A stretch of DNA of 31,364 bases from a virus. The position numbers and the translations under genes are program-made. The stretch is from positions 1-31,364 of the IMG/VR virus record IMGVR_UViG_3300045922_000418; one strand, given 5' to 3'. A model generated the notes under the pieces. The model was not told where the DNA came from, did no database searches, and saw nothing but the letters and a program-made list of their open reading frames with translations. Within the stretch, counting starts at the first letter, position 1. The number at the start of each line of letters is the position of its first letter. Positions 23,161-26,035 of this stretch are shown in pieces.

Positions 23161-23775
23161 CTACATGACCCCCATCTCGTCACCCTCTGTGCCTAATAAA
23201 GACCTGCGGCCTGTGCGCTTACGCTTCATGAGATCTTCTTGACGCTTCTTTTCAGCTTCCTCACGCTCTTTCGCTTCTTTTGCACGCTGTTCCGCTTCTC
23301 TTGCCAAACGCGCTTGTTCTTGTTGCGCCAAAAGTGAGGCTGAATTATCAACCTTTGGTTTTAAACCGCCCATATCAACTGCCCCTTGTTTAATTAAATA
23401 TTTGTAATAACCATATGGTGTAAAGGAATGGGATGTTATCCCGATTAACCTTTGCGTCAAAGACACACAAGTTGGTAATATAGTACCTATTTTATTTTTA
23501 TACTGCAAGCTCAAATCTGTTTTAACCTCAACGATTGTGTATTCTGGGTTTTCGAGCAGGTGGTCTATTACAATCTTGATTTCAAATGGATAAATCCAAG
23601 TTCTGATACCATGCATAGATTGATTTATGTTCATTGTTGCGCCTTCGACGGCAAAGAAAACAGAGCAATGTCTGAAATTTTTGCGTGTAAACCAGCGCCA
23701 CGGGGCTTTGATTTGATCGCTGTCTTGAAACACAACGTAATAGGTATATTCTTCCGGTTCACCAGTCTGTGTCAT
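23161..23775 (-). CDS. Permuted papain-like phage protein fused to KRTGRRSLLG tail
   Basis: This 204-residue protein is placed at the ATG at 23775, with AAGG nine bases upstream; frames to 23784 use TTG. Residues about 1-130 have FRHCSVFF (possible catalytic His) and later LPTCVSLTQRLIGI ... FTPYGYYKYL (possible catalytic Cys). That His-before-Cys order is typical of circularly permuted NlpC/P60-like folds and is common in a phage family encoded next to terminase. Activity is not shown. The C-terminal 70 residues duplicate the neighbouring 71-residue protein and carry a charged helix rich in Ala, Glu and Arg. It overlaps the terminase end by 17 bases. Confidence 0.68.
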   Translation of the reverse strand: MTQTGEPEEYTYYVVFQDSDQIKAPWRWFTRKNFRHCSVFFAVEGATMNINQSMHGIRTWIYPFEIKIVIDHLLENPEYTIVEVKTDLSLQYKNKIGTILPTCVSLTQRLIGITSHSFTPYGYYKYLIKQGAVDMGGLKPKVDNSASLLAQQEQARLAREAEQRAKEAKEREEAEKKRQEDLMKRKRTGRRSLLGTEGDEMGVM

Positions 23776-26035
23776 ACTCAACAACCTTATAGTTTTGATT
23801 GTTTCTTTTCTTCATAATGTTTAGCTCACCTGTACCGGCCACAAGGTATTGTAGCGCGTCGTGAACGTGTGAGTATTCGTTCTTTTCAGGTTCAGGAAGT
23901 GTGCGTGCGGCGTCGCCGTGTCCTATTTTGCGATATCTGTAACCGCCATTAAAGCCTTGGCGTAGTCTTTTGCATTTGTTGCCGACAATCATAGCCGGCT
24001 GGCCGTGCACCATGCGTGATAGTATGCTGTTTACGCCTTCAAGTCTTTCCTGAAACCTGAATCCGGGGGAGGGGTAAACCTCAATGCCTTCGCCTTTCAG
24101 GATGTCGAAATAAGTTCGTTCGTCTGTTTGTGATTTGTGACCGCCGGCAGGGTCTCCCCACCATCTAATGTTATGGGTTGGAAAATCGGCGGATATTTGT
24201 TGCTTGAGAAACCTTGAAAATCCAACGGCGCCAATGTCTGATGCGCATAGCTCCCATATAATTTGATACTGCCCCGTTGCTGTTTGCTGTGCTATAACCG
24301 CCGCTGGGCTACGGCCTGATGCATCAAGGCCGCCGATTAACAATTTGCCTGGTATGATTGATATGTTTTTATCAGTGTAGTGCGTATCGTCATTCCACAC
24401 GCCTTCATAAACGGATGCCCCGTCATGGAAGTAGCCGTATTTGCCGTGGACGTATACATTGACCCATTCTTTGGGCTTGCCGATCGACATGTTCTCATAA
24501 TATCCATCGGGCAGGTTTTTCTTATTCTCGGCCTGTGCGGATGTTCCGCTTGGCTGTTTATACATGGATACATTCGACGGCTTTAGCTCTTCGCATAGCT
24601 TATATATCCAGCCACCAACATCAGGCGGGTTTGTATCGGCAATGATACCCGACCAGAAGGGCTGGTCTACTGATTTTTTTTGAGGGAAGCGCCCCGGGCG
24701 GGTTTGCGCTTCACGGAATACGGTTTCATCAATGTATCGCAATTCATTAAACCAGATTCCGGTGCATTCTAGTGACATAAGTTTGCCGATATCCAATGGC
24801 CCATCAAGTGCCATGAATATCATTTCCAGCTTTAGCGTTGTGCCGTCTGTCATGGGGTGTTCTATAAGCTGTCTATACGGTGAACGGCCTGTAATTTCAG
24901 CGCCCTTGAATACATGAGGGCCGAACCAGTCTTTCCATGTTGCCATTGTTGTTGTTTCCAGCTGTGGCAATGTGTTACGCACAACAACCCACCTTGAATG
25001 ACGCACGCCTTTTTTATTGGCGGGCATGTTCATAGCACGCATATAGATTTCCCAGCAGCATCCTACTGATTTGCCGCTATTGTGGTGTATTGCCCCGTCC
25101 TCTGTTATATAATTGTTTACATCCAACACTTGAATATCCCAATAAATTTGCTTGACCGGCAATCTTTCTATTTTTAATATAGCCCCTTCGGATAAGGGTG
25201 TAGGGTATGAATGAGAATACGAGGAAGATTTTAAGTCTTGCAGATGGTGTTTTAACATCAACCGAGATTGCAAGGCAGGTTTGTTTAAGCCCTCGTTATG
25301 TTCGCAGAGTTCTTTTGAGGCATGATGCCCCTCGCCCGAATCAGGGCGCTCAATCAGGGCAGAAAAATCATCAATGGAAATCGGGAAGGCGGATTGATTT
25401 GGACGGCTATGTGACAGTAACATGTCAATCAGATCATCCTTATGCGCGTCATCGTTCCAATCGGGAGCAGAAAATAATCTTTGAACATCGTCTTGTGATG
25501 GAACAAATTCTGGGAAGGTATCTTGAACCTCAAGAAGTCGTTGACCATATTGACGGGCTAACTTTGCATAACCACCCATCAAATTTAAGAGTTTTCGAGA
25601 ATAACGCGGCGCATTTGAGAGTAACTCTTGCAGGGAAATGTCCAAAGTTTTCTGCTCTTGGAGCGAAAAATGTAGGAACACGCTCTGACCTTGGCAAAGA
25701 GTATCAACCCGTTGATATGTATGGTCGGCGCAAAGCAGCAGGTGATGTCCGCTTGCGACAAATTTTCCTTGCGTGGTTGTCACTTGATAAAGATAGTCCC
25801 TACCTTTTGGGAACGCACCACCTGTTGGAGAAAATTGGTATTGACCCCTATCAGCGTTCCAGCTTAGAACGCGCATTGGCCGATCTATCTGCTCGATGGG
25901 CATAGAGCCGTATTCTGTAACAACCTTTGTGTCACCGGCCAAGCATCCCACAGGACCCATAACAATCCGTATGAAATTATTGTCTTTATGAAACTGCGCC
26001 ATGGTTGGCGAGCATGAGTACTCTAGGTTCGTCAT
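23759..26035 (-). CDS. terL: Large terminase subunit precursor with intein in Walker A
   Basis: This 758-residue frame contains the terminase ATPase and nuclease and, from Cys31 to Asn319, an intein. After splicing, a 469-residue TerL remains. The extein halves GPVG (27-30) and SGKS (320-323) rebuild the Walker A motif GPVGSGKS. LECTGIWFNEL (about 422-432) is the Walker B/catalytic Glu region. The RNase H-like nuclease acidic residues are Asp571 (GGLDASG), Asp628 (WGDPAGG) and Asp726 (HDALQY). The enzyme pumps and cuts DNA during head filling. The start overlaps the HNH-like gene stop (ATGA). Without splicing the ATPase cannot work, so the intein must be active for phage growth. Confidence 0.93.
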   Translation of the reverse strand: MTNLEYSCSPTMAQFHKDNNFIRIVMGPVGCLAGDTKVVTEYGSMPIEQIDRPMRVLSWNADRGQYQFSPTGGAFPKGRDYLYQVTTTQGKFVASGHHLLLCADHTYQRVDTLCQGQSVFLHFSLQEQKTLDISLQELLSNAPRYSRKLLNLMGGYAKLARQYGQRLLEVQDTFPEFVPSQDDVQRLFSAPDWNDDAHKDDLIDMLLSHSRPNQSAFPISIDDFSALIERPDSGEGHHASKELCEHNEGLNKPALQSRLMLKHHLQDLKSSSYSHSYPTPLSEGAILKIERLPVKQIYWDIQVLDVNNYITEDGAIHHNSGKSVGCCWEIYMRAMNMPANKKGVRHSRWVVVRNTLPQLETTTMATWKDWFGPHVFKGAEITGRSPYRQLIEHPMTDGTTLKLEMIFMALDGPLDIGKLMSLECTGIWFNELRYIDETVFREAQTRPGRFPQKKSVDQPFWSGIIADTNPPDVGGWIYKLCEELKPSNVSMYKQPSGTSAQAENKKNLPDGYYENMSIGKPKEWVNVYVHGKYGYFHDGASVYEGVWNDDTHYTDKNISIIPGKLLIGGLDASGRSPAAVIAQQTATGQYQIIWELCASDIGAVGFSRFLKQQISADFPTHNIRWWGDPAGGHKSQTDERTYFDILKGEGIEVYPSPGFRFQERLEGVNSILSRMVHGQPAMIVGNKCKRLRQGFNGGYRYRKIGHGDAARTLPEPEKNEYSHVHDALQYLVAGTGELNIMKKRNNQNYKVVEYDTDW
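25152..25180 (+). promoter_or_regulatory. Promoter-like boxes for the antisense HNH gene
   Basis: On the plus strand TTGACC (25152-25157) and TAATAT (25175-25180) have a 17-base spacer, within the DNA that encodes the C-terminal splicing domain on the other strand. The start of the HNH gene lies 27 bases downstream. A small hairpin CCCTT-N5-AAGGG (25184-25198) holds the Shine-Dalgarno-like AAGGG in one arm. Confidence 0.5.
25207..25905 (+). CDS. HTH + HNH homing endonuclease, antisense inside the TerL intein
   Basis: This 232-residue protein starts at ATG 25207, with AAGGG (25194-25198) eight bases upstream. Residues 15-37 form a helix-turn-helix (LTSTEIARQVCLSPRYVRRV). Residues about 62-140 are a canonical phage HNH domain: GYV, EHRLVMEQILGR, VVDHIDGLTLHN, HPSNLRV and a final AAH; the likely catalytic and metal residues are His114, Asn122 or Asn126, and His136. 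It is wholly contained in the terminase precursor gene on the opposite strand (precursor residues 44-277). Such enzymes cut intein-free alleles and drive the element into them. The C-terminal 70 residues run antisense to the essential N-terminal splicing domain. Codon first positions of the two genes face each other. Confidence 0.88.
   Translation: MNENTRKILSLADGVLTSTEIARQVCLSPRYVRRVLLRHDAPRPNQGAQSGQKNHQWKSGRRIDLDGYVTVTCQSDHPYARHRSNREQKIIFEHRLVMEQILGRYLEPQEVVDHIDGLTLHNHPSNLRVFENNAAHLRVTLAGKCPKFSALGAKNVGTRSDLGKEYQPVDMYGRRKAAGDVRLRQIFLAWLSLDKDSPYLLGTHHLLEKIGIDPYQRSSLERALADLSARWA

Follow-up and report, generated by a model that had tools for sequence, protein, structure and literature searches.

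An intein in a viral terminase gene with a putative homing endonuclease encoded on the opposite strand

The terminase gene terL in the viral DNA studied here, an IMG/VR virus record of 31,364 bases that we refer to in its entirety as the window, is interrupted by an intein, and the opposite strand of this intein carries a gene for a helix-turn-helix and HNH (HTH+HNH) protein. We infer splicing, transcription, cleavage and homing, and consider it very probable that the element is a homing intein with an endonuclease expressed independently from a gene antisense to it; this DNA-cutting gene is probably what spreads the intein. The HNH frame is under purifying selection, while most of the intein linker opposite it is hardly conserved as protein and yet is kept free of stops, and the part of the gene that overlaps the splicing domain is dual-coding.

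The intein and the gene opposite it

The features of the locus are collected in Table 1. The match of the window extein to TIGR01547 is weak (E 0.005), and a profile-profile comparison of the window extein family with an alignment of TerLs supported by Pfam or PHROG gave a probability of 99.6 (E 7e-24). The intein matches Pfam Intein_splicing (E 5e-4) and TIGR01445 (E 0.03). In an alignment of 20 divergent members of the family (A4) the first residue, C1, is invariant, as are G60 and H68 of block B (20/20) and the terminal H288-H289-N290 (20/20); block B mostly follows the pattern [TSN]xxH, and the +1 residue is Ser, Thr or Cys in all 91 loci whose intein ends could be parsed. In an AlphaFold2 (AF2) model the HINT domain spans residues 10-100 and 261-298 of the segment modelled and has a pLDDT of 83-94, and a Foldseek comparison with solved mini-inteins placed the NpuDnaB mini-intein 4o1r first (E 1.5e-8, TM 0.85). 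Judged by its motifs and its predicted fold, the TerL intein looks functional in splicing.

Table 1. Features of the terL locus (positions in the window)
Feature	Position	Strand	Remarks
terL precursor, 758 aa	23759-26035	-	N-extein 25946-26035, intein 25079-25945, C-extein 23759-25078
Intein Cys31-Asn319, 289 aa	25079-25945	-	Within Walker A: GPVG/CLAGDT...AIHHN/SGKS
Intein blocks F-G	25079-25144	-	YWDIQVLDVNNYITEDGAIHHN, then +1 Ser
Intein block B	25733-25768	-	GKFVASGHHLLL, [TSN]xxH; beneath the C-terminal part of the antisense HNH
Sigma70-like promoter	25152-25180	+	TTGACC-17-TAATAT, score 9/12; inside the intein
Weak Shine-Dalgarno-like AAGGG	25194-25198	+	8 nt 5' of the HNH ATG; from sequence
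HTH+HNH endonuclease gene, 232 aa	25207-25905	+	Antisense, entirely within the intein; phrog_10730, HNH_3
N-terminal helix-turn-helix, HNH residues 8-38	25228-25320	+	Pfam HTH_29 E 1.9e-4, under the curated cut-off
HNH catalytic core, residues 94-136	25486-25614	+	HNH_3; alignment A5
Dual-coding zone, HNH residues 186-232	25762-25902	+	Opposite the interval between intein blocks A and B
Second small HNH_3 protein, 86 aa	26032-26292	-	phrog_4590; directly upstream of terL, 4-nt overlap with its start

The linker between the two parts of the HINT domain has a pLDDT mostly of 33-50 and is probably disordered. A canonical large intein carries its endonuclease as a domain of its own chain, in the region that separates blocks B and F; the window intein does not, because the sense linker is predicted to be disordered and is nearly unconstrained in sequence, and the HNH is antisense. 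As in other inteins, the insertion is in frame at a functional motif, here Walker A, and is missing from intein-less alleles (the empty sites of PHB10 and ET729).

The protein encoded on the opposite strand matches phrog_10730, an HNH endonuclease family, over residues 6-231 (E 2.6e-46) and Pfam HNH_3 over residues 94-132 (E 6.5e-7). Seven residues of the core are invariant in the 42 HNH sequences of alignment A5 (D113, H114, N122, N126, R128, N133 and H136). Its AF2 model has a mean pLDDT of 88, with helices at residues 3-11, 18-25 and 29-38 in the N-terminal region, and the helix-turn-helix predicted there from profile and model likely serves in DNA binding. Sequence profiles thus find both the HNH motif and the DNA-binding module of an HNH homing endonuclease; the assignment as a nuclease rests on these profiles, since Foldseek returned no convincing global match in the PDB for the model. 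The C-terminal part of the protein (residues ~176-232) is antisense to block B and to the greater part of the stretch between blocks A and B. The preliminary description of this DNA had reported an intein from Cys31 to Asn319 with good splicing blocks, the lack of an in-frame endonuclease, and a complete 232-residue HTH+HNH gene lying wholly inside the intein on the other strand, and all three observations are borne out here.

Because the surroundings of terL are otherwise read from the minus strand, the HNH gene would be expected to be transcribed independently, and candidate signals for its expression lie within the intein coding sequence. Shine-Dalgarno cores precede the HNH start in 60 of 92 homologous loci, against 7.6% of control windows within the gene, and the former figure is probably an underestimate because a simple choice of start codon mispicked the start in some loci. 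Promoter-like sites scoring at least 9/12 lie upstream of the HNH gene in 48 of 85 loci, where 16.5 are expected from sense-synonymous shuffles, with p-values for this enrichment that are only indicative because the loci are related. The putative promoters usually have a 17-base spacer, their -10 box lies 17-78 nt (in many cases 42-57 nt) from where the HNH match begins, and the sigma70 consensus is perfect at L040, L041 and L155 among the loci listed. Part of the promoter-like signal could be due to intein residues conserved in the sense frame; the enrichment survives sense-synonymous shuffling.

Selection on the two strands and conservation among homologues

The register of the two genes sets HNH codon positions 1, 2 and 3 opposite intein positions 1, 3 and 2, so that selection on the two frames is separable. 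Over HNH residues 1-135, 14 disjoint pairs differ at 245 first, 175 second and 665 third positions (p 6e-68 for third versus second); over residues 186-232 the corresponding counts are 35, 62 and 42, i.e. all positions are similarly constrained. Identity in the sense frame between distant pairs was then set against the value that HNH conservation alone would yield once synonymous codons are shuffled. Opposite HNH residues 1-90 it is 0.175-0.195 (0.156-0.184 expected), opposite residues 91-135 there is a modest excess (0.331 versus 0.232), and opposite residues 186-232 the excess is large (0.586 versus 0.188). Codon positions and sense identity together indicate that the nuclease frame is conserved, that the linker mostly is not, and that the overlap is dual-coding. 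The preliminary description had called for selection to be tested in each frame and had named a conserved sense linker above a broken antisense frame as one outcome that would speak against it; the opposite was found.

The sense frame is nonetheless kept open. When the HNH codons of 66 genes were shuffled synonymously, 435 sense-frame stops were expected and none is observed; for the window gene the same shuffle predicts ~8 sense stops, and none of 2000 shuffles was stop-free. As a control, the same antisense register was read over the first 232 codons of 63 other long open reading frames of these contigs, and it is open in none of them. The shuffles, the control frames and the HNH profile match rule out a chance antisense open reading frame. 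The earlier view of the linker as simply the stop-free antisense translation of the HNH gene holds with regard to the missing stops and falls short in one respect, in that the HNH gene also overlaps block B and the A-B interval.

Homologues were collected by similarity to the HNH protein and not by openness of the opposite strand. They come from IMG/VR, from Pectobacterium/Dickeya phages and Pseudoalteromonas phage PHS3, and from genome contigs of Enterobacter cloacae, Acinetobacter, Desulfobulbaceae and actinobacterial origin. Among the matches listed, all 94 distinct HNH homologues are encoded opposite an open TerL-intein frame and always in this register, as the search for homologues proposed at the outset was meant to ascertain, and in each of the 91 loci with parsed ends the intein sits at Walker A (the P-loop). 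The extein families are widely divergent. Among 4095 extein pairs, 1589 lack a BLAST match at 1e-3; all HNH pairs match. Near full-length HNH matches in the phage collection comprise nine records, from the Pectobacterium/Dickeya and Pseudoalteromonas phages, with none from actinobacterial phages. A single-protein search of viral_contigs with the window intein returned no relatives, while a search with alignment A4 did. Near-full HNH genes are retained in 68 of 74 distinct intein loci.

Neither free-standing nor in-frame members of the HNH family were found in viral_contigs, genome_contigs, the phage collection or 369+176 bacterial genomes, using two HNH alignment scans (best 80 of each), one single-protein scan of viral_contigs and, for the bacterial genomes, a threshold of E<=1e-20. 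The other matches were distant HNHs covering the protein only in part, and those inspected (H10, H20 and H36) are ordinary genes that share the strand of their neighbours.

Several loci show further peculiarities. The enterobacterial HNH frames are longer (L164 3638-4678 and L168 1604-2644, 347 codons from stop to stop), the additional N-terminal segment resembling a further HTH, and the intein there has 336 aa. The TerL of E. coli MEI003 (L168, 1480-3885, +) contains an exact tandem duplication of ~29 residues, VVVNSSNPPVKDRVNSMNAMFCNANGERR, near its C-terminus. An apparent second, canonical intein is present in the C-extein of L048 (988-3372, -; LAGLIDADG_3 E 5e-10), so that from its sequence this TerL appears to hold both kinds, an antisense-HNH intein at Walker A and an in-frame LAGLIDADG intein downstream. 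The C-extein of L077 (1003-3300, -) likewise has an apparent second canonical intein (Hint_2 E 1.5e-7), and the TerL frames of L055, L081 and L084 are also unusually long.

Mobility and competing explanations

The inteins of the E. cloacae DSM 26481 and E. coli MEI003 prophages share 92.2% identity over 1008 bases, against 69.9% for the C-exteins. Escherichia phage PHB10, intein-less exactly at the junction, has a C-extein with 92.4% identity to the E. cloacae one. PHB10 and ET729 provide exact empty sites: they are close terL relatives with an intact terL and neither intein nor HNH at this position. In a second case, the HNH of L025 is 94% identical to that of L017 and its extein 92% identical to that of L032. 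Both cases show the spread into empty alleles, together with the intervening element, that is expected of a homing endonuclease. Purely horizontal spread was dropped as an explanation: overall, distances between HNH proteins correlate with those between exteins (r 0.81), so that a large share of the history reflects co-divergence inside phage lineages and transfer is shown in a few cases only.

Decay is also seen, in each case with the sense frame still open. The HNH gene is broken in L241, has lost its N-terminus in L243 and L255 (inteins of 207 and 224 aa), and in L273 is reduced to the part over blocks A-B, leaving a mini-intein of 146 aa. From their sequences, the empty allele, the transfers and the decayed and mini-intein forms are consistent with a homing cycle. 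The proposal, put forward when the locus was first described, that an intein captured an HNH gene in reverse agrees with the arrangement in all 94 homologues, with the exact empty site, with the decay products and with the promoter and ribosome-binding signals.

We envisage that TerL would be produced late, its P-loop interrupted by the intein, and that self-excision would be needed for ATP hydrolysis and DNA packaging. The HTH-HNH protein would be expressed separately from the late operon, possibly earlier, under a promoter and ribosome-binding site of its own. Its target for cleavage would be the conserved P-loop codons of an intein-less terL, carried by a co-infecting phage or prophage, and repair off the occupied copy would then install intein and endonuclease together. 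The linker would have little or no sequence function of its own, being the antisense text of the HNH gene, kept stop-free and forming a disordered loop at the usual position of the endonuclease.

Phages commonly have HNH genes beside terL, and the window has a second small HNH gene immediately upstream of it (Table 1), which would suit a role of the antisense HNH as an accessory packaging nuclease, a function that HNH proteins neighbouring terminases can have, nested by happenstance and kept for a benefit in packaging rather than for homing. We regard this as improbable, as PHB10 and ET729 keep an intact terL with neither intein nor HNH at the site, the HNH decays or vanishes while TerL stays open, it was not found outside the intein among the matches listed, and the element moves among TerL backgrounds.

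It is less probable still, and indeed very unlikely, that there is no splicing and that TerL tolerates the insertion as a loop or acts as fragments, as has been proposed for the ShiLan methylase insertion. This would accord with GenBank/RefSeq, where terL is given as incomplete or a pseudogene in E. coli MEI003 (L168 1480-3885) and as split in PHS3 (L008 1194-3317), the HNH gene being the sole gene annotated at both intein sites. We attribute these annotations to the intein, and the arrangement accounts for such terL genes being recorded as split or as pseudogenes. Against the absence of splicing stand the invariant C1, block B His and His-His-Asn, the Ser, Thr or Cys at +1 in all parsed loci, and the confidently predicted HINT fold that matches mini-inteins; moreover, an unspliced TerL should be dead because the insertion divides the Walker A ATP-binding loop.

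The antisense HNH might instead be mostly a fossil of a former homing endonuclease in vertically inherited inteins. The overall co-divergence of HNH and extein, as well as the broken and truncated copies, lend themselves to such a history, which we hold to be just as improbable in view of the near-full HNH in most distinct intein loci (68/74), the strong purifying selection on it and the recent transfer involving the E. cloacae and E. coli prophages. A functional linker, e.g. a degenerate in-frame endonuclease with the HNH frame as a by-product of codon pattern, would explain a sense frame open at every locus and is hardly conceivable, being ruled out by the profile match of the HNH (E 2.6e-46), codon positions that favour the HNH frame (p 6e-68), sense identity near the HNH-only expectation opposite residues 1-90, the predicted disorder and the mini-intein L273 that dispenses with the linker.

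Relation to known systems

A homing intein with an antisense endonuclease would breach the working rule by which the endonuclease of an intein belongs to the polypeptide that is spliced. The open-access papers searched contained no account of an intein with an antisense endonuclease, and the arrangement is likely novel. One source (PMC11855218) cites Gosselin, Arsenault and Gogarten 2025 (bioRxiv 10.1101/2025.01.02.630785) and Gorbalenya 1998 in connection with overlapping reading frames and actinobacteriophages, and these works on non-canonical inteins may describe out-of-frame endonucleases in inteins. On balance we lean towards an undescribed, widespread class of selfish element in which splicing and homing, both indispensable to it, are placed on opposite strands in the most restrictive register, with the promoter and ribosome-binding site of the HNH gene inside the intein coding sequence.

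If this is true, the opposite-strand endonuclease is freed from the timing of the host late gene, and a long-standing question, namely when in infection homing pays most, becomes testable. The locus also offers a natural and deeply sampled instance of antisense dual coding with both frames selected, splicing blocks on one strand and a nuclease domain on the other. In practical terms, it is a source of small inteins that insert at a P-loop and of HNH nucleases whose predicted target is the conserved P-loop of terL.

In-frame endonucleases are a familiar feature of TerL inteins, including those of mycobacteriophage (Kelley et al. 2016, PMC5050341), and intein endonuclease domains have been described as nested at one conserved insertion site (CDC21 inteins, PMC6801210). 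The element described here resembles canonical LAGLIDADG or HNH homing inteins in its HINT domain, in its location at a functional motif, be it in TerL or in another P-loop protein, in endonuclease-driven mobility, which we infer in the present case, and in decay to mini-inteins. It differs in that the canonical endonuclease belongs to the same polypeptide, whereas here it is a separate gene on the opposite strand that has its own putative expression signals and overlaps block B.

ShiLan-domain insertions in phage methylases, reported in 2025, hide an HNH on the same strand and have no splicing domain (Arsenault et al. 2025, PMC11855218). Both elements conceal an HNH within an insertion that is open in the frame of the host gene, and both spread among phages. 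The ShiLan HNH lies in another frame of the same strand, with no ribosome-binding site detected, whereas the window element has its HNH on the opposite strand and possesses a HINT domain, and so is not of the ShiLan type.

A parallel in strand arrangement is provided by the antisense homing endonuclease genes of group I introns, I-DsqI of Didymium squamulosum (PMC9548176) and Dir.S956-2, where the gene likewise lies opposite both the host gene and the splicing element. Independent expression and cleavage of the empty site are features of these endonucleases that the antisense HNH would share. The window element is nevertheless probably no ribozyme intron, since all 91 parsed loci show an open protein frame bearing intein motifs, and a HINT fold is predicted. 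A group I intron is spliced at the level of RNA and need not be translated, whereas in the antisense-HNH intein the strand opposite the endonuclease must remain an open protein frame that is competent in splicing.
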